From Ignavibacteriota bacterium (GTDB taxonomy: Bacteria > Bacteroidota > Ignavibacteria > Tepidaquicellales > Tepidaquicellaceae), in NCBI GenBank assembly GCA_016218085.1, contig JACREY010000011.1:1-64000 (forward strand): DNA of 64,000 bases, given 5' to 3'. Both the position numbers and the translations under genes were made by a program. Below are positions 3,675 through 57,968 of the stretch, in pieces (position 1 is the first letter of the stretch; each line of letters begins with the position of its first letter). The notes beneath the pieces are model-generated. The model was not told where the DNA came from and searched no databases. It worked only from the letters and a program-made list of their open reading frames with translations.

Positions 3675-6200
3675 ATGAAAAAAATAATTTTTACAATCAT
3701 GCTTATTATCCTTTTGGTTTCCGTGTCTTACTCTCAATACGGATACCGCTGGATTCAAAAACAAAGCGGAACTGCAAGCAGCTTTTATGGCTCTTATTTT
3801 TCAAATAATTCTTCTAATAATTATGCGGGATTTATCTGCGGAGCTAACGGCACAGTCTTCTTCTCAAATGACGGATATAATACCTGGCTCTCAAAATCTG
3901 TCGGAATAAACGTAAATCTGTATTCAATTGCTTCTGCCTCACCAAATTACAACTCAATTGTCTGCTGTGGTGACGACGGAACCGTTTTATATTCATCTAA
4001 TGCAGGAACAAACTGGATTCAGCTGAACTCAGGTACAACCGCAAAGTTAAACTGCATAGTTCGTTCAGGTACAAAACTATTTGCCACAGGAAACAACGGA
4101 ACCATTATTTCTTCAAGCTGGTCAGGGACTGCTTACTCCCCCTTCACTCAGATTTCATCCGGAACCACACAAAATCTCAAAAGTATTTATATTAACTCAG
4201 AATTTTTTGCTTGCGGTGACAATGGTACAGTTTTAAAGTCAACAAATCTTGGTGTGAACTGGTCTGCTGTTCCCTCTCCTGCTTCTGTTAGCCTTAATTC
4301 TGTATATGGATATTCAACCGAAATAAATGTCTGCGGTAACAACGGGCTGTATTATAAAACTACTAACAACGGGCTCATTTGGACAAGCTACCCGACTGGG
4401 GTTACAAACAATTTGAATTGCCTCAATTTATATTATTATATTTTTGGAAACTCGGGCACAATCTTGTATAATAAATATACGGGGTCGGGGCAAATAGAAT
4501 GGGAAAAAATGATTTCACCCGTAACCGAAAATTTATATTATGGATTGCAGACCTCGAATAATATATTTTTTACCTTCGGCTCAAATGGAACTATATTGAA
4601 AAGAGAAATGGACTCTTCTTTAATAGCCCGGAAAATAAGCGGAAATAATATCAGCACATATATGATTTATAGAGGAATATTTGACCAGAATATTTTTTCA
4701 ACAAATACACCCGGTTTCGAGTGGCCTGCCGGCTCAAATAAACACGCCGTTTTTACAACCGGTTTATCTGCTGGCTGCCGCATAAACGGTCAGCTTGCCC
4801 AGACAATGTGCTCTTATATGGGCGAGTATCAGCCCGGATGTATTATAAACGGTCAACTGAATGATAGTGATATTTTCAAAATTTATAAAGTCAGCAAAAC
4901 TGAAAACCCGCCGGGGCAGGACTGGATGAACTGGGGATGTATGGTTCCTTTCGGCGCTCCTTATGTCGATGTCAATCACAACGGAATCTATGAACCCCTT
5001 ATTGATACTCCGGGAGTCAAAAATGCAGCACAGACTCTCTTCGTCTGCCTGACCGATATAAACCCGTCTACTCATAGTGCCGGAGAAGGATTCGGCGGCG
5101 GCATTACGTCCCCCTTAATGGGAATTGAATTGCACCTTACCAAATGGACATACAATTATCCGAGTTTCAATGATGTTGTTTTTACTAAATTCGATATATT
5201 AAATAAATGCGGCTCCGCCTGGAATAATACTCACTTTGCAATCGTTTCAGACCCCGATATTGGCGATGCAAGCGACGACTGGGTTGGGTGCGATACAATC
5301 AGAAATATGGGTTATTGCTATAACTATGATAATGATGACCCGCAATATGGTACAGCTCCCCCTGCGGTTGGCTTTGATATTTTAAAAGGACCACTGAATA
5401 AAAGTGTAGTTCCTAATGTCAGGTATAATATGTCATCATTTATCAGGTTTGTTTCACCAAATGCAACACCTCCCAATGAAGGCGACCCTAACGGAGAACC
5501 TTATCCTGCTTATTTAATGCTGAAAGGATTAAAAAAAGATTCCTCCGCCTGGGTGGATAAAACACAACCAACACCCTGGGGAAGCTATAAAAGAACAAAA
5601 AAGATTTTTTACGGAGACCCGGAAACTAACGAAGGCTGGACTTCGCAAAAAGGATATATTTCCACCTGGACACCAAACGATTCAACTGGAATTGAACTCC
5701 CTGAAACACCAGGTGATAAAAGAATCGTAATAGGTATCGGTGCGGATAATTATTCCGTCTATCACGGCGATACTGCCACCATCTGGCTCGCCCAGCTTGT
5801 TGCGCGCGGATCAAATAATCTGAACTCGGTTACAAAACTAAAACAACTGTCCGATATTACACAGATGTTTTTTGAAAGCAATTTTACCATCGGAATAAAT
5901 CAGATTTCATCCGAAATTCCCGATAAATATTCACTTGAACAAAATTATCCGAACCCGTTTAACCCCGCAACAAAAATTAAATACTCTGTTGCAAAGTTTT
6001 CTGACGTAAAACTCGTTGTATATGATATCCTCGGAAGAAAAATCAGGGAGCTCGTAAATGAAAAACAGGCACCGGGAGTATATGAAGTTCTTTTCGATGC
6101 ATCATCGGATAAACTGAAATCTCTTGCCAGCGGTGTCTATTTTTACAGATTAAATACCGGTAACTTCTCCGATACAAAACGAATGCTCCTGATTAAATAG
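3675..6200 (+). CDS. Large secreted YCF48-like propeller protein with T9SS tail
   Basis: 841 aa. Signal peptide at residues 1-20 (ends VSVSYSQ). Residues about 25-310 hold repeated CGDNGTV / SSNAGTNW blades, a YCF48-like propeller. The central 300-740 region is a different globular part with calcium-loop-like stretches (DVNHNGIYEP, DPDIGDASDD) and no family I recognise. The last 86 residues start with QNYPNPFNP and end SGVYFYRL...KRMLLIK, a T9SS type A sorting domain. Probably an extracellular or cell-surface protein. The short space before the next gene (71 bp) allows co-transcription with it. Confidence 0.85.
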   Translation: MKKIIFTIMLIILLVSVSYSQYGYRWIQKQSGTASSFYGSYFSNNSSNNYAGFICGANGTVFFSNDGYNTWLSKSVGINVNLYSIASASPNYNSIVCCGDDGTVLYSSNAGTNWIQLNSGTTAKLNCIVRSGTKLFATGNNGTIISSSWSGTAYSPFTQISSGTTQNLKSIYINSEFFACGDNGTVLKSTNLGVNWSAVPSPASVSLNSVYGYSTEINVCGNNGLYYKTTNNGLIWTSYPTGVTNNLNCLNLYYYIFGNSGTILYNKYTGSGQIEWEKMISPVTENLYYGLQTSNNIFFTFGSNGTILKREMDSSLIARKISGNNISTYMIYRGIFDQNIFSTNTPGFEWPAGSNKHAVFTTGLSAGCRINGQLAQTMCSYMGEYQPGCIINGQLNDSDIFKIYKVSKTENPPGQDWMNWGCMVPFGAPYVDVNHNGIYEPLIDTPGVKNAAQTLFVCLTDINPSTHSAGEGFGGGITSPLMGIELHLTKWTYNYPSFNDVVFTKFDILNKCGSAWNNTHFAIVSDPDIGDASDDWVGCDTIRNMGYCYNYDNDDPQYGTAPPAVGFDILKGPLNKSVVPNVRYNMSSFIRFVSPNATPPNEGDPNGEPYPAYLMLKGLKKDSSAWVDKTQPTPWGSYKRTKKIFYGDPETNEGWTSQKGYISTWTPNDSTGIELPETPGDKRIVIGIGADNYSVYHGDTATIWLAQLVARGSNNLNSVTKLKQLSDITQMFFESNFTIGINQISSEIPDKYSLEQNYPNPFNPATKIKYSVAKFSDVKLVVYDILGRKIRELVNEKQAPGVYEVLFDASSDKLKSLASGVYFYRLNTGNFSDTKRMLLIK

Positions 6201-11628: not shown

Positions 11629-11657
11629 CCTCGTTCCCACGCTCCTGCGTGGGAACG
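11629..11657. repeat. Palindromic hairpin repeat CCTCG + CGTTCCCACGC/GCGTGGGAACG
   Basis: Perfect 11-bp arms around TCCT, introduced by CCTCG, 15-18 bp after the alcohol dehydrogenase stop. The same layout (CCTCGTTACCAAGCT-GA-AGCTTGGTAACG, written in parts) occurs at 49345-49373. There is no T-run, so it is better seen as a dispersed palindromic repeat than as an ordinary terminator. Confidence 0.7.
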
Positions 11658-11726: not shown

Positions 11727-12515
11727 ATGAATCACTCATACGAATTCCAAAATATTCCCAAATCAAGAATAGCCACCTTCGATGTCTATCAAATGGGACT
11801 GCAAAAGCATCACGTAGCCGCTCTTCTCGAATTCGACGTAACCGAAAGCAGGTCTGAACTGCGCGAACTGAAAAGAAGCGGAAAGAAAATATCTTTTAAC
11901 GCATTCCTGATAAAAGCAATAAGCAAAGCTGTCGAACTCCACCCTGAAGCCGCGGGATACATTTACAGCAAAAAAAAATTAATGCTCTTTAAAGATGTAA
12001 ACATTTCTTTCATAGTCGAAAAAACAATCGGCGGAAAAAAAGTCCCTATGCCCGTAGTAATAGAAAAGTCAAATGAAAAAACAGCAGAGGATATAACGCG
12101 GGAAATCGAAGACGCTAAAAATTACGAACTGACGGAAAAAGACATCATACTGAATAAAAAATCTCAGGCAAACGAAAAAATATATTACCGGCTCCCGAAA
12201 TTTTTAAGAATAATGTTCTGGCGCTATATGCTCTCCCATCCGAAATTCGCATACGAAAAAATGGGAAACGTAATCGTAACCTCTCTTGGTGCAGCGGGAA
12301 AAATCAACGGCTGGTTCGTGCATAAATCGGTTCACCCGCTATCGTTTGGCATCGGCTCCGTGCTGAAAAAACCCGTTGTAATAAAAGATGAAATTAAAAT
12401 CAGGGAAATACTGAATATGACCATCCTCATTGACCATGACCCCATTGACGGCGCCCCGATGGTAAGATTCATCGGTGACCTCACAGATTATATTGAAAAT
12501 TTCAGCCGTGATTAA
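11727..12515 (+). CDS. Stand-alone 2-oxoacid dehydrogenase E2-type acyltransferase catalytic domain
   Basis: 262 aa, only the chloramphenicol-acetyltransferase-like catalytic domain of E2 proteins: no lipoyl domain, no subunit-binding domain and no E1/E3 genes nearby. The E2 active-site motif DHRxxDG appears as D236-H237-D-P-I-D241-G, keeping the catalytic His and the Asp but replacing Arg with Asp. SFNAFLIKAISKAVE and GNVIVTSLGAAGKINGWFVHKSVHPLSFGIGS (both split here for reading) match the family fold. Such lone domains occur in Bacteroidota and are thought to acylate an unknown acceptor; the acyl donor here is unknown. Confidence 0.85.
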   Translation: MNHSYEFQNIPKSRIATFDVYQMGLQKHHVAALLEFDVTESRSELRELKRSGKKISFNAFLIKAISKAVELHPEAAGYIYSKKKLMLFKDVNISFIVEKTIGGKKVPMPVVIEKSNEKTAEDITREIEDAKNYELTEKDIILNKKSQANEKIYYRLPKFLRIMFWRYMLSHPKFAYEKMGNVIVTSLGAAGKINGWFVHKSVHPLSFGIGSVLKKPVVIKDEIKIREILNMTILIDHDPIDGAPMVRFIGDLTDYIENFSRD

Positions 12516-12540
12516 GAACTGCAAAACAACCAGTTAAAAC

Positions 12541-13390
12541 AAAAGGGAAACGTATGTGCAATTCTTACTTTAAAAGCCTTAAAATTCGCAAAAAAAACAA
12601 CAATACCGATGCATTTTTTTATGGTGAACTTTTGTAGTACTTTTGTTGTCCGATTTTCTCACAACGAGACGTATATTTAAAAGAGCTTGTACCATAATAT
12701 TATATGGTATTAAAAAACAAATATCAAGGGGGAAAGTGTTTATAAGATTTATAAAGTAAGAGCAATAACTTTCAACACAAAGGCACGAATTTTTTTTATA
12801 GGTTAAGAGTGAAGAATAAGAGCTTTGCACATGGAAAATGCGGAAAGAGAATGATTTTTTTAAGGGTAAGAGTCCCGACAAGCCGGGACAGGCGGAATTT
12901 TACGCCCCCTGTTTGTCATCCCGGCGTCCCGTTATGTTTTAAAACGGGATCAGGCCGGGATCCAGCTCTTGCTTTTGTTCTTCATTTCAGCCCATCGCTC
13001 TTTCGCTTTTGATCCCGGTGCTTTTTTTATCGGGACACTTTAAACTGTGGGTTGAATTGGTTTTTCTTTAAAACCGTTTAAACGGTTTAATAGCTCTTGG
13101 ATTTTCTTTTCCCACGGATAAATCCGTGGGCTGAACGGAAGAGCGTAAAAGAAAATTATTATATTTTATGTCGGGAGTCCACAAAGCGGAGACTCCCCGA
13201 CACGAGAAGTAATAATCTCAAAATTTATTCTGAATGAAGAGCGATGTTATTGTTTGTGGATCCCGGCCTAAAATCCGCCGGGATGACAGGGGGGGCTGGA
13301 GAGCAAGAACGAGACCCCTGCCTAAAACATACAGGGGTGACAAACGTGTTGGAGAGCAAGCTCCCCCTCTCTTTTTTTCATTTAATATCA
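12541..13390. repeat. Composite palindromic repeat island, no genes
   Basis: About 850 bp between two genes with no credible ORF. In order: a 108-bp element shared with the island at 49.5 kb (12629-12736), an AGAGC word (12818-12822), a CCCG-rich hairpin (12915-12963), the module TTCAGCCCATCGCT (12986-12999), an AAACCGTTT/AAACGGTTT palindrome (13071-13088), CCCACGGAT-AA-ATCCGTGGG (13111-13130), a GTCGGGAGTC hairpin (13170-13201), and two hairpins of the GATCCCGGCCTAAAA type, each ending in GGAGAGCAA (13256-13306, 13312-13360). Most palindromes are followed within 30 bp by AGAGC or its complement. Confidence 0.85.
12629..12736. repeat. Element shared with the 49.5-49.8 kb island
   Basis: Contains CTTTTGTAGTACTTTTGTTG + TCC (12629-12651), then TATTTAAAAGA (12674-12684), TATATGGTAT (12701-12710), exactly 14 bp, and CAAGGGGGAAAG (12725-12736). 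The same four words in the same order, with the same 14-bp gap between the last two, lie at 49474-49496, 49714-49724, 49746-49755 and 49770-49781. Confidence 0.8.
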
Positions 13391-13435
13391 AAAAAATTTG
13401 TTACATCTTACAGGGCTTAATTAAAATTCGATATA

Positions 13436-14977
13436 ATGAAAAAATATATTATAATATTATTTGTTCTGGCTTTTGCATTTCCCGCTTTTGCGCAGGAATC
13501 CGGTAATCAGGATGTGAAGGAGCTTATTATACTGCACTGGAATGACTTCCATTCGAGGAATATGCCCTACAAGGTGAATAAAAAAGATTCGACAGGCGCG
13601 CAGACTCAGATATACGTTGGCGGAACGGCAAGTATGCTCGGCTACCTGAATAAATACAGGGACGATAAATCACTCGTGCTTAACGGCGGCGATGACTACC
13701 AGGGAACTCCGATTTCCTCCATCACGAGAGGATATTCGCAAATCGAGCTTCTTAATTTATACAATCTCGATGCATTCGTACTCGGCAATCACGATTTTGA
13801 TTACGGAATGTACACGCTCGACTCCGCTCTCAAAGGCGCAAACTTCCCCTTCCTTGCCGCTAATATTGCTGTTAAAGGAACAAATAAAACATTCGGCAAA
13901 CCTTACCTGGTAAAGGAAGTCAACGGAATAAAAATCGGCATTATAGGCGTGGTTCCGAAAGATTTAATGACTCTTACACTTCCTAAAAATGTCGGTGACC
14001 TCACTATGCTGAATACCGATTCCGTAATAGCGGCGGGTATCACAATCCTGAAAAAGGAAAACTGCAACCTGATTGTTCTGCTCTCGCATAACGGAGTTGA
14101 CCGCGACAGGGATTTTGCGGAAAAGTTTCATAAGGATATAGATGTCATAATCGGCGGACACTCGCATTCGGTTATATTCAAGCCTGAAATAGTAAACGGA
14201 GTGATTATCTGCCAGGCAGGCTCATACGGACGCGACCTCGGCAAGCTGGATTTGAAAGTAGATATTACAAAGGATACCGTGGTAAAATATTTCGGGAAAC
14301 TTTATGAAACAAAACTCGATTCGAATATATTCGATAAACCTGCAATGGAAAAGGTCGAGGGTATGATATCCGCTATCGAGCCCGAAATGAAAAAGCCCAT
14401 AGGCAAACTGCTCTCCGACTGGAAGAAAAGCAGTCTGGGACAGTGGGAAGCCGATGCCATCAGGGATAAACTTCAGACCGATATTTCTTTCCTCAACGGC
14501 GGAAGCATCAGAAAGACTATGATAGCAGGCGATATTACGGTCGGCGATATCTGGGAAATAAATCCTTTCGGAAATTCGATGATGAAATTTTCCGTCAGTG
14601 GAAAATCAATCAGGAAAATGCTGGCGTATAATTTAAGGTCGCTTTCCAAAATTAAGGATAATCCCGAATACGACAACATTCTGGTATCAGGATTATATGT
14701 TGAATTAAATTCAAAAGAAATAACCGAAGATTCCGGGGATTTCATCAAAAAAATTCTTGTGAACGGAAACCCTCTGGATGAAAACAAACAATATACCGTT
14801 TCATCGAATAATTACGTGGTTTCACAGATGAAAAAATATTTCGGTGAAATTCCGGACAAAATAGAAGCAGAAGATACAAACATTCTCGACAGGGATTTAA
14901 TAATCGAAGCGGTGCAGAAACAAAAGGAAATAAATTCCGTATTTGAAAAGAGGATAGTTGACCTTAGTGCGGAATAA
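13436..14977 (+). CDS. Periplasmic 5'-nucleotidase/UshA-family metallophosphatase
   Basis: 513 aa. Signal peptide at residues 1-20 (FAFPAFAQ). The N-terminal calcineurin-like metallophosphatase domain has the dimetal motifs HWNDFHSR (D37, H39), NGGDDYQG (D86) and LGNHDFDYG (N118, H119), then LLSHNG and GGHSHS. The C-terminal 5'-nucleotidase domain (from about residue 320) has FLNGGSIR and GDIWEINPFGNSM. The family hydrolyses nucleotides, UDP-sugars or 2',3'-cyclic nucleotides outside the cytoplasm; the exact substrate is not clear from sequence. The gene follows the repeat island and leads a run of three same-strand genes (yggX 26 bp downstream, then the phosphatase). Confidence 0.92.
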   Translation: MKKYIIILFVLAFAFPAFAQESGNQDVKELIILHWNDFHSRNMPYKVNKKDSTGAQTQIYVGGTASMLGYLNKYRDDKSLVLNGGDDYQGTPISSITRGYSQIELLNLYNLDAFVLGNHDFDYGMYTLDSALKGANFPFLAANIAVKGTNKTFGKPYLVKEVNGIKIGIIGVVPKDLMTLTLPKNVGDLTMLNTDSVIAAGITILKKENCNLIVLLSHNGVDRDRDFAEKFHKDIDVIIGGHSHSVIFKPEIVNGVIICQAGSYGRDLGKLDLKVDITKDTVVKYFGKLYETKLDSNIFDKPAMEKVEGMISAIEPEMKKPIGKLLSDWKKSSLGQWEADAIRDKLQTDISFLNGGSIRKTMIAGDITVGDIWEINPFGNSMMKFSVSGKSIRKMLAYNLRSLSKIKDNPEYDNILVSGLYVELNSKEITEDSGDFIKKILVNGNPLDENKQYTVSSNNYVVSQMKKYFGEIPDKIEAEDTNILDRDLIIEAVQKQKEINSVFEKRIVDLSAE

Positions 14978-45210: not shown

Positions 45211-45567
45211 ATGAACCTCGAATTTTTCCGCGAATATGCACTTAAGAAAAAAGCGGCTTCGGAAAGCCAGCCCTTCGGAGAAGATGTGATTGTATATAAG
45301 GTTGCCGGGAAGATTTTTATGATGATGAATTTCGAAACCCCGTTTCAGATTAGTTTAAAATGTGACCCCGAACTTGCTATCGAACTTCGGGAAAAATATT
45401 CCGCTATCAGACCGGCGTATCATATGAATAATAAACACTGGAATATGATTGATGCGGACGGCTCCGTGCCTGTAAACGAAATTCTGAATATGATTGACCA
45501 TTCGTATGAATTGGTGGTGAGGAAGTTGACAAAAAAAGAAAAAGAAATTTATAAGAACAGTAGATAG
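45211..45567 (+). CDS. MmcQ/YjbR-family protein
   Basis: 118 aa. The YjbR fold is seen in FREYALKKKAASESQPFGEDVIVYKVAGKIF, LKCDPELAIELREKY and PAYHMNNKHWNMI (short pieces). The family is a small alpha/beta domain that resembles the CyaY fold; some members bind DNA, but the biological role is not settled. The last residues NSR and the stop TAG are encoded by the start of a heptamer array. Divergent from the sensor kinase. Confidence 0.92.
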   Translation: MNLEFFREYALKKKAASESQPFGEDVIVYKVAGKIFMMMNFETPFQISLKCDPELAIELREKYSAIRPAYHMNNKHWNMIDADGSVPVNEILNMIDHSYELVVRKLTKKEKEIYKNSR

Positions 45568-45652
45568 TAGTCAGTAGTTAGTAGACAGTAGAAGAGCATA
45601 TCGCAAAAAAAGCTTGTATGCTGACTACTAACTACAATCTACTAACTACTTC
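45561..45652. repeat. Heptamer array and its inverted copy at the yjbR stop codon
   Basis: TAGATAG, TAGTCAG, TAGTTAG, TAGACAG (45561-45588) then TAGAAGAGCA, followed about 20 bp later by CTGACTACTAACTACAATC and TACTAACTACTT (45621-45652), the inverted copy. The two can pair into a long imperfect hairpin, which may end the yjbR transcript. The stop TAG (45565-45567) lies in the first unit. Confidence 0.8.
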
Positions 45653-47029: not shown

Positions 47030-49291
47030 ATGAACGAAAAACACATTGAAAAAATTTCAAAAGAACTGAACCTAAAAGAAAACCAGATTTTTGCCACGGC
47101 AAAGCTGCTGAGCGAAGACGCCACGGTGCCGTTTATAGCAAGGTACAGAAAAGAACTGACGGGAAGCCTCGATGAAGTGATTATCACTGCAATACGCGAC
47201 CGCCTTGCACAACTCGATGAACTCGACAAACGCCGCGAAGCAATTCTTAAATCACTCGAAGAGCGCGAACTGCTGACCGATGAACTTAAAGAAAAAATTG
47301 ATGCGGCTGAAACTCTTACCGAACTCGAAGATATTTACCTTCCCTTCCGCCCGAAGAAACGTACACGCGCCACGATTGCAAAAGAAAAAGGACTCGAGCC
47401 GCTTGCCGTGATGATATTCGAACAGGAGAATATTGACGTAATCGCCGAAGCGGAAAAATTCATAGACGAAGAAAAAGGCGTGAAGTCTGCAGAGGATGCA
47501 CTCGCAGGCGCACGCGATATTATGGCAGAGTGGGTTAACGAAAATAAACTCGCCAGGGAAAAAACGCGAGACCTCTTTGAGCGAAAAGCATTCGTTTTCT
47601 CAAAGGTTGCAAAAGACAAGGAAGAAGAAGGAATAAAGTATAAGGATTACTACGACTGGAAAGAACTTGCAAAAGACGCTCCCTCGCACAGACTGCTTGC
47701 AATGTACCGCGGAGAGAATGAAGGTTTCTTAAGACTTAACATATGTCCCGACGAAGAAGAAGCAATTGAAATACTTGATAAAATGTTTGTAAAAAATTTC
47801 GCATCTGTAGAAAGCGTTCAGAAAAATTCTGCGCAGGAACAGGTTTTAATTGCAGTAAAAGACTGCTACAAGCGACTGCTCTCGCTTTCGATTGAAACAG
47901 AATTCAGAGGACTTCTGAAAGAGAAAGCCGACCGCGCCGCAATAATAGTATTTGCTGATAATCTCAGACAGCTTCTGCTCGCTCCTCCGCTCGGCGAAAA
48001 AAATATTCTTGCTCTCGACCCGGGATTCAGAACGGGGTGCAAGGTTGTATGCCTCGACCGCCACGGAAAACTTCTGCACAACGAAACAATTTATCCTCAC
48101 ACAGGAGCCGCTCTTAAACTACAGGCGGCGGAAAGAATAATCGACCTCGTGGAAAAATTTCATACGGAAATAGTTGCAGTCGGAAACGGCACAGCAGGCA
48201 GAGAGACAGAAGAATTTGTACGCTCGGTTTTTGAAAAGACAGGAAAGAAAGATATTCCGGTTGTGATGGTGAACGAAAGCGGCGCTTCAATTTATTCCGC
48301 ATCGGAAGTTGCACGAGAAGAATTTCCCGATTACGATGTAACCGTGAGAGGCTCTGTCTCAATCGGCAGAAGACTTATAGACCCGCTTGCAGAGCTTGTG
48401 AAGATTGACCCGAAATCAATCGGAGTGGGGCAATACCAGCACGACGTGAACCAGACAATGCTTAAGCAGAAACTCGACGATGTGGTAATGTCCTGCGTAA
48501 ACGGAGTCGGCGTGGAAGTAAACACTGCCAGCAAACAGCTCCTGACCTACGTTTCCGGGCTGGGTCCGAAACTTGCACAGAGCATAGTGGAATTCAGAAA
48601 TGAAAACGGCGCATTTAAATCACGCGAAGAATTGAAAAAAGTACCTCGTCTGAAAAATAAAGCATTCGAGCAAGCCGCAGGATTTTTAAGAATCCGCAAC
48701 GGTGAAAATCCGCTCGATGCATCGGCTGTTCACCCCGAAACTTATCACATCGTTGAAAAAATGGCAACGGATATCGGGTGCACCGTGAAAGAATTAATTA
48801 CATTCCCGCAGAATCAGGCTAAGATAGACGTGAACAAGTACATCAGCGATACGGTTGGACTTCCGACACTCGAAGACATACGTGCTGAGCTTGCAAAACC
48901 CGGACGCGACCCGAGAGAGAAATTCGAGATATTCGAATTTGCAAAAGATGTCGGAAAAATCGAAGACCTGAAACCCGGAATGAAACTCCCCGGAATAGTT
49001 ACCAACATTACAAACTTCGGTGCGTTCGTGGATATCGGGGTTCATCAGGACGGGCTTGTGCACATAAGCGAAATAGCAGACGGCTATATAAAAAATCCTG
49101 CAGACGTTTTGAAAGTTTCGCAGAAAGTTACCGTGAAAGTTCTGGAAGTTGACCTTGCAAGAAAACGCATACAGCTCTCGCTCCGCACGGGAAGCGGCGA
49201 AAAGAAAGTGGAGAAGAAACCCAAGACATCTTCAAAAGAAGAAGCGGATAAGAAACTGAAAATGCTGATGGAGAAATTTAAAAAGCAGTAG
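47030..49291 (+). CDS. tex: Tex-family transcription accessory / RNA-binding protein
   Basis: 753 aa, full length. N-terminal helical Tex domain (VPFIARYRKELTGSLDE), YqgF/RuvC-like fold (ILALDPGFRTGCKVVCLD), helix-hairpin-helix region (AQSIVEFRNENGAFKSREEL...VPRLKNKAFEQAAGFLRI, in pieces) and a C-terminal S1 RNA-binding domain (GIVTNITNFGAFVDIGVHQDGL, in pieces). Tex binds nucleic acids and affects transcription and virulence gene expression in several bacteria; the exact job is unsettled. The stop TAG lies in the first unit of a heptamer array (49289-49323). Confidence 0.95.
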   Translation: MNEKHIEKISKELNLKENQIFATAKLLSEDATVPFIARYRKELTGSLDEVIITAIRDRLAQLDELDKRREAILKSLEERELLTDELKEKIDAAETLTELEDIYLPFRPKKRTRATIAKEKGLEPLAVMIFEQENIDVIAEAEKFIDEEKGVKSAEDALAGARDIMAEWVNENKLAREKTRDLFERKAFVFSKVAKDKEEEGIKYKDYYDWKELAKDAPSHRLLAMYRGENEGFLRLNICPDEEEAIEILDKMFVKNFASVESVQKNSAQEQVLIAVKDCYKRLLSLSIETEFRGLLKEKADRAAIIVFADNLRQLLLAPPLGEKNILALDPGFRTGCKVVCLDRHGKLLHNETIYPHTGAALKLQAAERIIDLVEKFHTEIVAVGNGTAGRETEEFVRSVFEKTGKKDIPVVMVNESGASIYSASEVAREEFPDYDVTVRGSVSIGRRLIDPLAELVKIDPKSIGVGQYQHDVNQTMLKQKLDDVVMSCVNGVGVEVNTASKQLLTYVSGLGPKLAQSIVEFRNENGAFKSREELKKVPRLKNKAFEQAAGFLRIRNGENPLDASAVHPETYHIVEKMATDIGCTVKELITFPQNQAKIDVNKYISDTVGLPTLEDIRAELAKPGRDPREKFEIFEFAKDVGKIEDLKPGMKLPGIVTNITNFGAFVDIGVHQDGLVHISEIADGYIKNPADVLKVSQKVTVKVLEVDLARKRIQLSLRTGSGEKKVEKKPKTSSKEEADKKLKMLMEKFKKQ

Positions 49292-49323
49292 TTAGTAGAT
49301 AGTAGTTAGTATTTAGTAGAAGA
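49289..49323. repeat. Heptamer array overlapping the tex stop codon
   Basis: Five units: TAGTTAG, TAGATAG, TAGTTAG, TATTTAG, TAGAAGA, ending in AGAGCA. The tex stop is the first three bases. Same consensus as the yjbR array, where TAGAAGAGCA also closes the row. Confidence 0.8.
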
Positions 49324-49804
49324 GCAAAAACTCTATCTCATTTGCCTCGTTACCAAGCTGAAGCTTGGTAACGCACAACACGCTCTCCAACACCCGCCGC
49401 GGCGGGTCATCCCCGCGTCCCGTTATGTTTTAAAACGGGATCCGGCATGGATCTCGTTTTTAAAAGTGTTGCACTTTCGTAGCACTTTTGTTGTCCATTT
49501 CACCCTTTTTTCACTCACAAAATTGAAAAAACATATCTTTACCCAAAAAATCCGCTGGGGGGAGGGGGTTGAAAAAAAATTTTGTGTTATTTTGTTATCG
49601 GTTTTGCTTAACTGCTATATAATAATAAGAGTTACACGATAACATTTGTTATCGGATGCGTTATTGGTGTTATTGTTTTTAATTTTCTTGCCACAGAGCC
49701 ACAGAGAAAATTCTATTTAAAAGAACGAGAATATACCCGTATTAATATATGGTATACGGTTGAGAAAAGCAAGGGGGAAAGAGGAGGAGAATATATACGA
49801 AAGT
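49324..49804. repeat. Gene-free composite repeat island between tex and the Gabija-like pair
   Basis: Contains the CCTCG palindrome (49345-49373), CGCTCTCCAACACCCGCCGCG (rc ends in GGAGAGCG), the GTCATCCCCGCGTCCCG hairpin with TTATGTTTTAAAACGGGAT (49406-49442, nearly identical to 12915-12963), the 23-bp GTAGCACTTTTGTTGTCC word (49474-49496), a perfect 8-bp-arm palindrome CGATAACA/TGTTATCG (49637-49654), a direct repeat of TTTGTTATCGG (49591-49601, 49645-49655), and the TATATGGTAT-N14-CAAGGGGGAAAG block (49746-49781). No ORF. Tex and gajB converge here. Confidence 0.8.
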
Positions 49805-53086: not shown

Positions 53087-53145
53087 AACGAGATCCCCGC
53101 TTAAAACATGCGGGGATGACACGCCGCGGCGGGGTTGGAGAGCAT
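53087..53145. repeat. GC-rich hairpin repeat upstream of gajA
   Basis: GATCCCCGCTTAAAACATG + CGGGGATGAC, then CGCCGCGGCGGGG, TTGGAGAGCA. Same family, but opposite orientation, as 49380-49442; also matches 13256-13306 and 13312-13360. Stem CCCCGC/GCGGGG. Confidence 0.8.
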
Positions 53146-57779: not shown

Positions 57780-57847
57780 AATTAATAAAAATAAAAAACG
57801 CCTAAACTTTTCCCGAACCTGATAAAACAAGGAAAAATTTAAGCGTT
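57780..57847 (-). terminator. Riboswitch-controlled terminator hairpin
   Basis: On the minus-strand RNA, AACGCTTAAATTTTTCC (57847-57831) pairs with GGAAAAGTTTAGGCGTT (57813-57797) with 15 of 17 pairs matched, followed by a T-rich run (TTTTTTATTTTTATT). The loop holds ATCAGGTTC (57815-57823), the exact complement of the aptamer core GAACCTGAT. Confidence 0.85.
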
Positions 57848-57857
57848 GAAAATAATT

Positions 57858-57945
57858 TGTAGTTTCCTACGGCGGCATTACCCGCATCAGGTTCTATGGG
57901 TCTTGTCTCAGCCTTTCCCGGAACGGGGAAAAGCACCCCAATACA
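57858..57945 (-). ncRNA. TPP (THI-box) riboswitch
   Basis: Minus-strand RNA carries, in order, GGGGTGC (57934-57940), a GC hairpin, GGCTGAGA (57906-57913), ACCC, GAACCTGAT (57886-57894), GCGGGTAATGCCGCCGTAGG + AAAC (about 57863-57885). These are the conserved segments of the THI box. The expression platform is the terminator about 11 nt downstream; the anti-terminator can form between GAACCTGAT and the terminator loop. In the bound state the terminator should form and switch the receptor off. Confidence 0.95.
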
Positions 57946-57968
57946 GCTATTATGCAAAAAGAACTAAA

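Follow-up and report, generated by a model that had tools for sequence, protein, structure and literature searches.

The closest described relatives of the sequence studied here are dispersed repeats of bacterial spacers, together with the transposases that accompany some of them. In REPtrons, GTAG REPs, which are palindromes with an NNAG/GTAG foot, flank a Y1 (HUH) transposase gene, TnpA_REP or RAYT, on either side, with dispersed non-autonomous copies in spacers and C|T steps 5' of the foot. The accessible text of PMC8266576 reports cleavage at C|T by the TnpA_REP enzymes of both E. coli and S. maltophilia, the E. coli enzyme requiring a C as the attacking 3' end, and it calls the mechanisms of REP dissemination poorly understood. 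TnpA_Y1 proteins of subclass 1.2, reported mainly from Bacteroidetes and Cyanobacteria, are low in copy number, about 150 aa long, carry Y---Q--HH and WQ motifs, and are described as generally without typical terminal secondary structures (PMC6006769). CGTC REPs, as defined in the accessible part of PMC3733652, have a CGTC or TGTC head, a stem of 8-9 bp that starts with AT, a CCA tail, and loops usually of 4-5 nt, with exceptions listed. In its accessible description, the Neisseria NIME system (dRS3 plus RS) builds spacer mosaics of interchangeable modules around one recurring boundary element, a 20-bp inverted repeat that is a CGTC-1 REP. Finally, heptamer repeats such as TAACTGA are direct repeats found mainly in spacers and scattered among distant bacteria, according to the available text of PMC4679880.

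The DNA analyzed here, a 64,000-nt window from an environmental Ignavibacteria genome (G000; 3.31 Mb in 22 contigs), belongs to a genome in which REPs, Y1 transposases, heptamer arrays and NIME-like mosaics, all already known kinds, occur together. Like REPtrons, the genome has palindromes on both sides of a Y1 gene, most of the copies with an NNAG-type foot, lone copies in spacers, and C|T steps 5' of the foot; unlike them, it has a subclass 1.2 protein with Y---Q--HH, where class 2 RAYTs have YIxxNP, two different hairpins at each end, and a five-base tip that is common to unrelated modules genome-wide. The protein matches subclass 1.2 in motifs, length and copy number, but its gene carries two conserved hairpins per end, with lone copies elsewhere. 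Whereas the NIME boundary is an inverted repeat, the boundary here is a 5-nt asymmetric word, AGAGC, and many modules are tandem arrays; no ATTCCC(N)8GGGAAT repeats flanking RS units of 50-150 bp are present in the island. The accessible text of PMC4679880 contained no description of a common terminal word for heptamer repeats, whereas AGAGC stands at array ends here. In the literature searched, we found neither a strand-locked five-base punctuation uniting these known parts nor a report of two-hairpin ends on subclass 1.2 genes. The island in the window is best explained as one of many intergenic mosaics in which AGAGC serves as a directional junction within head-to-tail chains of REP-type hairpins and short tandem arrays: the word is over-represented, behaves as a module boundary, is locked in strand, is restricted to a few related genomes, and sits as a fixed tip at 9-10 nt on an element flanking a Y1 gene.

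The island occupies the spacer at 12516-13435, between an E2-like acyltransferase ORF (11727-12515, plus strand) and a 5'-nucleotidase family ORF (13436-14977, plus strand), whose named relatives are Ignavibacteria MAGs. An earlier note, made from the sequence alone, had described an AGAGC-rich repeat island here, and that observation is confirmed. By motif count it holds ten AGAGC over both strands, seven on plus (12682-12686, 12759-12763, 12819-12823, 13140-13144, 13238-13242, 13300-13304 and 13353-13357) and three on minus (12965-12969, 12997-13001 and 13093-13097), whereas in 2000 dinucleotide shuffles the average is 0.78 and the highest count 5, none reaching 10. The ten are not co-oriented, which counts against the Y1 transposase proposal given below. 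A minus-strand ORF of 100 aa covers 12579-12881, and this part was left out of the genome-wide intergenic counts given below. The stretch at 12691-12735 (CCATAATATTATATGG...CAAGGGGGAAA) matches positions 4940-4984 of a relative's locus, L073, in inverted orientation (46 nt, 83%), and similar text occurs near 49730-49790 and in spacers of contigs C3 and C21, a second dispersed family.

Seven hairpins lie in the island when the composite at 12914-12964 is taken as one, and six have AGAGC within 30 nt by coordinates, as the note had said of most of its palindromes: those at 12914-12964, 13071-13088, 13111-13130, 13173-13197 (28 nt upstream only), 13260-13284 and 13314-13338, with 12872-12889 as the one without. 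They are known kinds, namely CGTC-type REPs plus two hairpins that form one element. The composite CGTC REP, TGTCATCCCGG...CCGGGATCCA (12914-12964, plus), contains a nested hairpin at 12927-12949 and touches the minus-strand AGAGC at 12965; a second CGTC-type REP (13257-13288, minus) reads TGTC-ATCCCGGC...GCCGGGAT-CCA on its strand and is followed by the AGAGC at 13300. Both have the TGTC head, the AT-starting stem and the CCA tail of the definition in the accessible part of PMC3733652, and depart from it in the loop, which is 9 nt long (13260-13284) or holds a second hairpin. A second CGTC-like hairpin, ACCCCTG..CAGGGGT (13314-13338), runs into GACA and then the AGAGC at 13353, the final module before homology to L073 resumes at 13372. 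The two-hairpin element consists of an inner hairpin, AAACCG..CGGTTT (13071-13088, plus), recognized from the hairpin list, relatives' loci and an alignment, the minus-strand AGAGC at 13093, and an outer hairpin, CCCACGGATAAATCCGTGGG (13111-13130, plus), with the foot TCAG on the opposite strand, where other copies have GTAG; the AGAGC tip follows 9 nt past it at 13140, placing GCTCT on the foot-bearing strand. Between these groups lie the hairpin GGGAGTC..GACTCCC (13173-13197), of a family with no genome-wide AGAGC association, and a TTCTGAATGA unit of the GAATTAT array family followed by the AGAGC at 13238. Within the window, GGAGAGCAA occurs at 13298 and 13351 only.

Similar modules recur elsewhere in the window. 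Two plus-strand arrays of TAG heptamers end in AGAAGAGC, at 45557-45597 (heptamers 45557-45592) and 49287-49325 (heptamers 49287-49319), bearing out the suggestion that AGAGC terminates such arrays; further REPs and a minus-strand AGAGC at 49382 lie downstream of the latter. A CGTC-like REP, ATCCCCGC..GCGGGGAT-GACA followed by TTGGAGAGC, is found at 53093-53143 (plus), and a separate palindrome, CGTTCCC..GGGAACG (11632-11657), lies directly upstream of the acyltransferase ORF. The sole match of the Rfam scan of the window is a TPP riboswitch (57846-57950, minus), over the gathering score. The relative's locus L073 has orthologous flanks (74% identity from window position 13372 onward, 78% over the dehydrogenase), and a search there for an empty site gave no clean before/after pair because its spacer lacks the acyltransferase gene and has other REPs; the relatives are too distant. 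The acyltransferase gene (11727-12515), which L073 lacks at the corresponding position, has a relative of 62% identity in another genome, G016.

Genome-wide counts place AGAGC first among words. In 105 kb of spacers within the 1.08 Mb read, it occurs 243 times against 72.5 expected, rank 1 of 512 5-mers, while the coding remainder holds 1344 against 1268 and is not enriched; for this reason a Chi or uptake signal was rejected. Intergenic DNA was defined as the remainder after a greedy set of ORFs of >=90 aa, so some 'intergenic' blocks are truly coding (C2:36075-36627 looks so). Without the five richest spacers the count is 191 against 67.6 (rank 2), and spacers with at most one copy hold 64 against 44.2. 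A second sample of the same genome taken alone gave 60 against 29.8 at only rank 16, and the islands are therefore unevenly spread. The sites cluster, 144 of the 243 having a neighbour within 100 nt where 72 would be expected if uniform.

When the richer spacers are read along the strand of AGAGC, they resolve into modules, namely TAG heptamers, CACTAAG, TATAAAG and GAATTAT units and REPs, that each close with the word. Where the DNA upstream of an AGAGC site is homologous between spacers, the homology crosses the site in 15 cases and stops in 36, so that 0.29 of these sites are crossed, whereas the median of 177 words is 0.57 and AGAGC comes ninth; among the words below it, GAGCA and AGCAA are shifts of AGAGC, and TGACA, ACGAG and AACGA read as REP ends. 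The repeat families before and after the word form 35 combinations. Not every palindrome is a module of its own: AAACCGTTT and CCCACGGAT belong together as a single two-hairpin element.

Short tandem arrays are marked by AGAGC more than palindromes are. Against a background of 14%, the word lies within 40 nt of 23 of 31 TAG heptamer places, 19 of 23 CACTAAG, 9 of 16 GAATTAT and 25 of 51 CACAAAG places. The corresponding figures for REPs are 13/29 (CCCACGG), 8/36 (CGTC REPs), 9/49 (GACTCCC), 7/31 (GTTACC) and 9/56 (other transposase-flanking REPs), so that most REP families are near background. The comparison that the note had proposed as a test, of AGAGC beside palindromes and in random intergenic DNA, gave a modest excess: 14 of 54 GC hairpins in the 1.08 Mb have the word within 30 nt, where random places in the same spacers give 9.1 (16 of 500 draws reach 14) and random places in any spacer 6.2 (1 of 500 draws), and on these figures we regard the tie as real but modest. 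Its idea of a punctuation mark is supported by the genome-wide rank, the stops of homology, the 35 family combinations and the co-orientation described next; that the mark belongs mainly to palindromes is not.

Neighbouring AGAGC tend to share a strand. Pairs within 150 nt are on the same strand in 82 cases and on opposite strands in 26 (62 and 26 without the richest island), a preference that is gone at 150-400 nt (8 and 11). Across eight array families in G000, array and AGAGC strands agree 162 times and disagree 15 times, a comparison that is not blind, since AGAGC contexts in the first sample had been read before the array patterns were drawn up. With the patterns left as written on G000, agreement to disagreement was 47/14 in G040, 12/4 in G005, 7/6 in G020 and 6/4 in G001; pieces of G005 and G002 were chosen partly for arrays. 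The main exception in G040 is a locus on its contig C18 (L247), where inverted ACGGATT arrays enclose AGAGC. Once the letters of the arrays are masked, AGAGC still shows 101 same against 14 opposite (38 against 11 by spacer), third of 177 words and below only its shifts GAGCA and AGCAA, while other orders of its letters, GAGCA included, total 402/228. The GGGATGAC side of CGTC REPs is locked to the AGAGC strand as well (4/0 in G000, 9/1 in G020 and 12/1 in G040, the pieces of the latter two being chosen for carrying GGGATGAC motifs), and pieces of G040 chosen without AGAGC in the search pattern hold 46 AGAGC against 17.5 expected (rank 5). Adjoining arrays of different families agree in strand by only 36 to 21. 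The density of AGAGC is highest between convergent genes (3.9 per kb) and lowest between divergent ones (1.5 per kb). Replication-strand bias was set aside as a cause, GC skew being unusable here as it follows the local gene strand.

The window contains no Y1 transposase, in agreement with the note's finding of no RAYT or transposase there, and the mobilizer that it proposed to seek elsewhere has a candidate: the genome has six matches to the Y1_Tnp profile, five above the Pfam cut-off. The candidate gene, on contig C12 (119687-120136; E 3.5e-26, 92.1 bits), encodes a protein with the HUH (DHIH), WQ and Tyr motifs of a single-tyrosine HUH transposase, whose closest solved structure by sequence is the ISHp608 transposase. 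Its Tyr motif, YIENQKKHH, follows Y---Q--HH and not the YIxxNP of class 2 RAYTs, which assigns it to subclass 1.2. CCCACGG palindromes flank the gene, the outer side running into AGAGAGC. Its relatives are 69% identical in G001, 59% in G040, 57% in G041 and G020, and 51-52% in G025, G026 and G028, and at the relatives' loci a CCCACG palindrome on the outside and an AACCGTT..AACGGTT hairpin on the inside are separated by ~20 nt; at the transposase locus of G040 the inner hairpin alone was seen. The two-hairpin element stands beside the Y1 gene in seven Ignavibacteria genomes (G000, G001, G041, G020, G025, G026 and G028), flanking it as REPs flank the gene of a REPtron, and the window hairpins at 13071-13088 and 13111-13130 are exactly this pair, forming a lone copy at 13071-13144. 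In 20 aligned copies 96.3% of cells are paired, and two-sided changes occur in 18 cells against a shuffle mean of 4.3 (0 of 500 shuffles). The two window hairpins differ and their order is fixed, which sets them apart from REP dimers (BIME/REPIN), where a single REP is present twice in opposite orientations. The foot 5' of the palindrome is GTAG, ATAG, TTAG or TCAG in 12 CT-tailed copies (TCAG in the window copy), and two further palindromes have none. The other Y1 genes of the genome lie at loci L067, L069, L070, L071 and L072, several with flanking palindromes of their own (AACCCCTACGGGGTT, CTCGTTCCC..GGGAACGAG, GTTGTTGGTG..CACCAACAAC).

On this element AGAGC has a fixed place. It stands 9-10 nt past the outer hairpin in 8 of the 17 listed copies of G000, and another 5 have it with one mismatch; the 17 do not include the three copies next to the C12 gene, because the pattern misses copies with G at the last position. 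At a gap of 6-12 nt the tip is present in 4 of 8 listed copies in G040, 2 of 10 in G041 and 1 of 8 in G001, and in none of those listed for G020 (0/11), G008 (0/7) and G042 (0/5), counts that leave aside most of G010, two of its listed copies and all of G015. A second family of the order, f2, has the tip in 0 of 82. A second Y1-flanking REP family has AGAGC directly after the palindrome in 4 of 28 listed TATTAACAGG places, of which ~14 look REP-like, and a third REP family at 0 of 17 places. The complement, GCTCT, contains two C|T steps on the strand with the GTAG-like foot, as read from sequence only. The genomes with tips include those with the strongest punctuation, imperfectly: G005 has 17 AGAGC against 6.9 expected, yet its best Y1 match is only 37% identical, and G020 has a 57% identical Y1, yet only 42 AGAGC against 29.9. 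Over 12 genomes, with samples partly selected, punctuation and a close transposase correlate at rho 0.61 (p 0.03). The punctuation need not have started from the REP tips, whose AGAGC could be just a further example of it.

We tentatively propose, as the likeliest of the explanations though with somewhat less than even confidence, that a subclass 1.2 Y1 transposase nicks single strands at GCTCT and joins the intervening DNA into chains of fixed polarity. Having bound the foot and hairpin on single-stranded DNA, the enzyme would nick GCTCT, which is AGAGC read on the other strand, at its C|T steps; transfer of strands from one such site to another would then move any DNA lying between two of them. 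The outcome would be unrelated modules chained with locked polarity and only the cut site in common, and arrays without hairpins may be mobilized too. Against this proposal, the tandem arrays carry AGAGC most, yet offer the enzyme no hairpin. We know of no demonstration of C|T cutting by subclass 1.2 Y1 enzymes.

The main rival, possible if rather unlikely, is that AGAGC is a mere short direct repeat: slippage or recombination between copies would duplicate and delete pieces, with ordinary REP insertion and array growth supplying the rest. Direct repeats of five to six bases can mediate slippage, and tandem duplications bounded by AGAGC are plain at C3:140677-140917 and at C3:147539-148606, a spacer of 1 kb in which 21 AGAGC share one orientation, modules are repeated and a long CTTTGTGA run occurs. 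Slippage between copies of the word surely plays a part in some islands, the latter among them. This rival leaves unexplained the unrelated modules that carry AGAGC at many loci in so many family combinations, the strand lock across loci and genera, and the fixed 9-10 nt spacing on the two-hairpin element. A wider form of the Y1 transposase proposal, which we consider doubtful, would make the subclass 1.2 enzyme a general cut-and-join enzyme at GCTCT that reshuffles mosaics from any intergenic DNA, tandem arrays included, and would account for a genome-wide, strand-locked punctuation that arose in a few Ignavibacteria lineages.

It is unlikely, in our judgment, that AGAGC is instead the insertion target of another enzyme (an integrase, another transposase, or a nuclease plus repair), with modules, ends of the Y1 element among them, inserted beside it. 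Repeated insertion at an asymmetric site would yield locked polarity and chains, and CGTC REPs are without a known dedicated transposase in the accessible part of PMC3733652. No candidate gene was identified, however, and within homologous copies of the Y1 element, instead of only next to them, AGAGC keeps a constant distance of 9-10 nt. RVT_1 reverse transcriptases gave no match in the assembly, and a reverse-transcriptase origin of the arrays was rejected. It is very improbable that the system is NIME-like, with recombination at CGTC REPs and AGAGC as a by-product: the island does have CGTC REPs, of the superfamily of the Neisseria dRS3 repeats, and CGTC REPs are strand-locked to AGAGC, but few of their places lie near the word and most AGAGC chains inspected contain none. 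An RNA-level signal in spacer transcripts (terminator, processing or pausing) has hardly any likelihood, for although some single AGAGC lie in terminator-like hairpins beside T runs (C4:17661, C8:11402), we reject it because no strand preference relative to genes is seen, neither for sites between co-directional genes (55 sense, 66 antisense) nor for arrays (67 and 77).

The punctuation is narrow in its distribution. TAG heptamers occur in 14 of the 44 genomes of the order, and one of 40 relatives has the exact form of array plus AGAGC, a similar end being present in G001, a member of this genus; beyond the order, a search for AAGAGCAAGAGCWWW in 395 genomes of the phylum gave 7 here and no more than 3 elsewhere. 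Two other genomes stand out: in G010, for example at its locus L312, the CCCACG palindrome pattern has separately expanded to 55 places, many of them clustered closely in tandem (GCCCACGAATTCATTCGTGGGC), and G002 has 72 places with the GTAGnnA heptamer pattern, far above any other genome of the order.

These findings touch the open question of how REPs spread and whether REP transposases act beyond their own hairpins. If the Y1 transposase proposal is true, a five-base strand-locked junction would be the genomic footprint of single-strand cutting and joining, with gene, site and substrate named, and chained intergenic tandem repeats would gain a source besides slippage. Through the two-hairpin element, subclass 1.2 Y1 proteins gain terminal structures.
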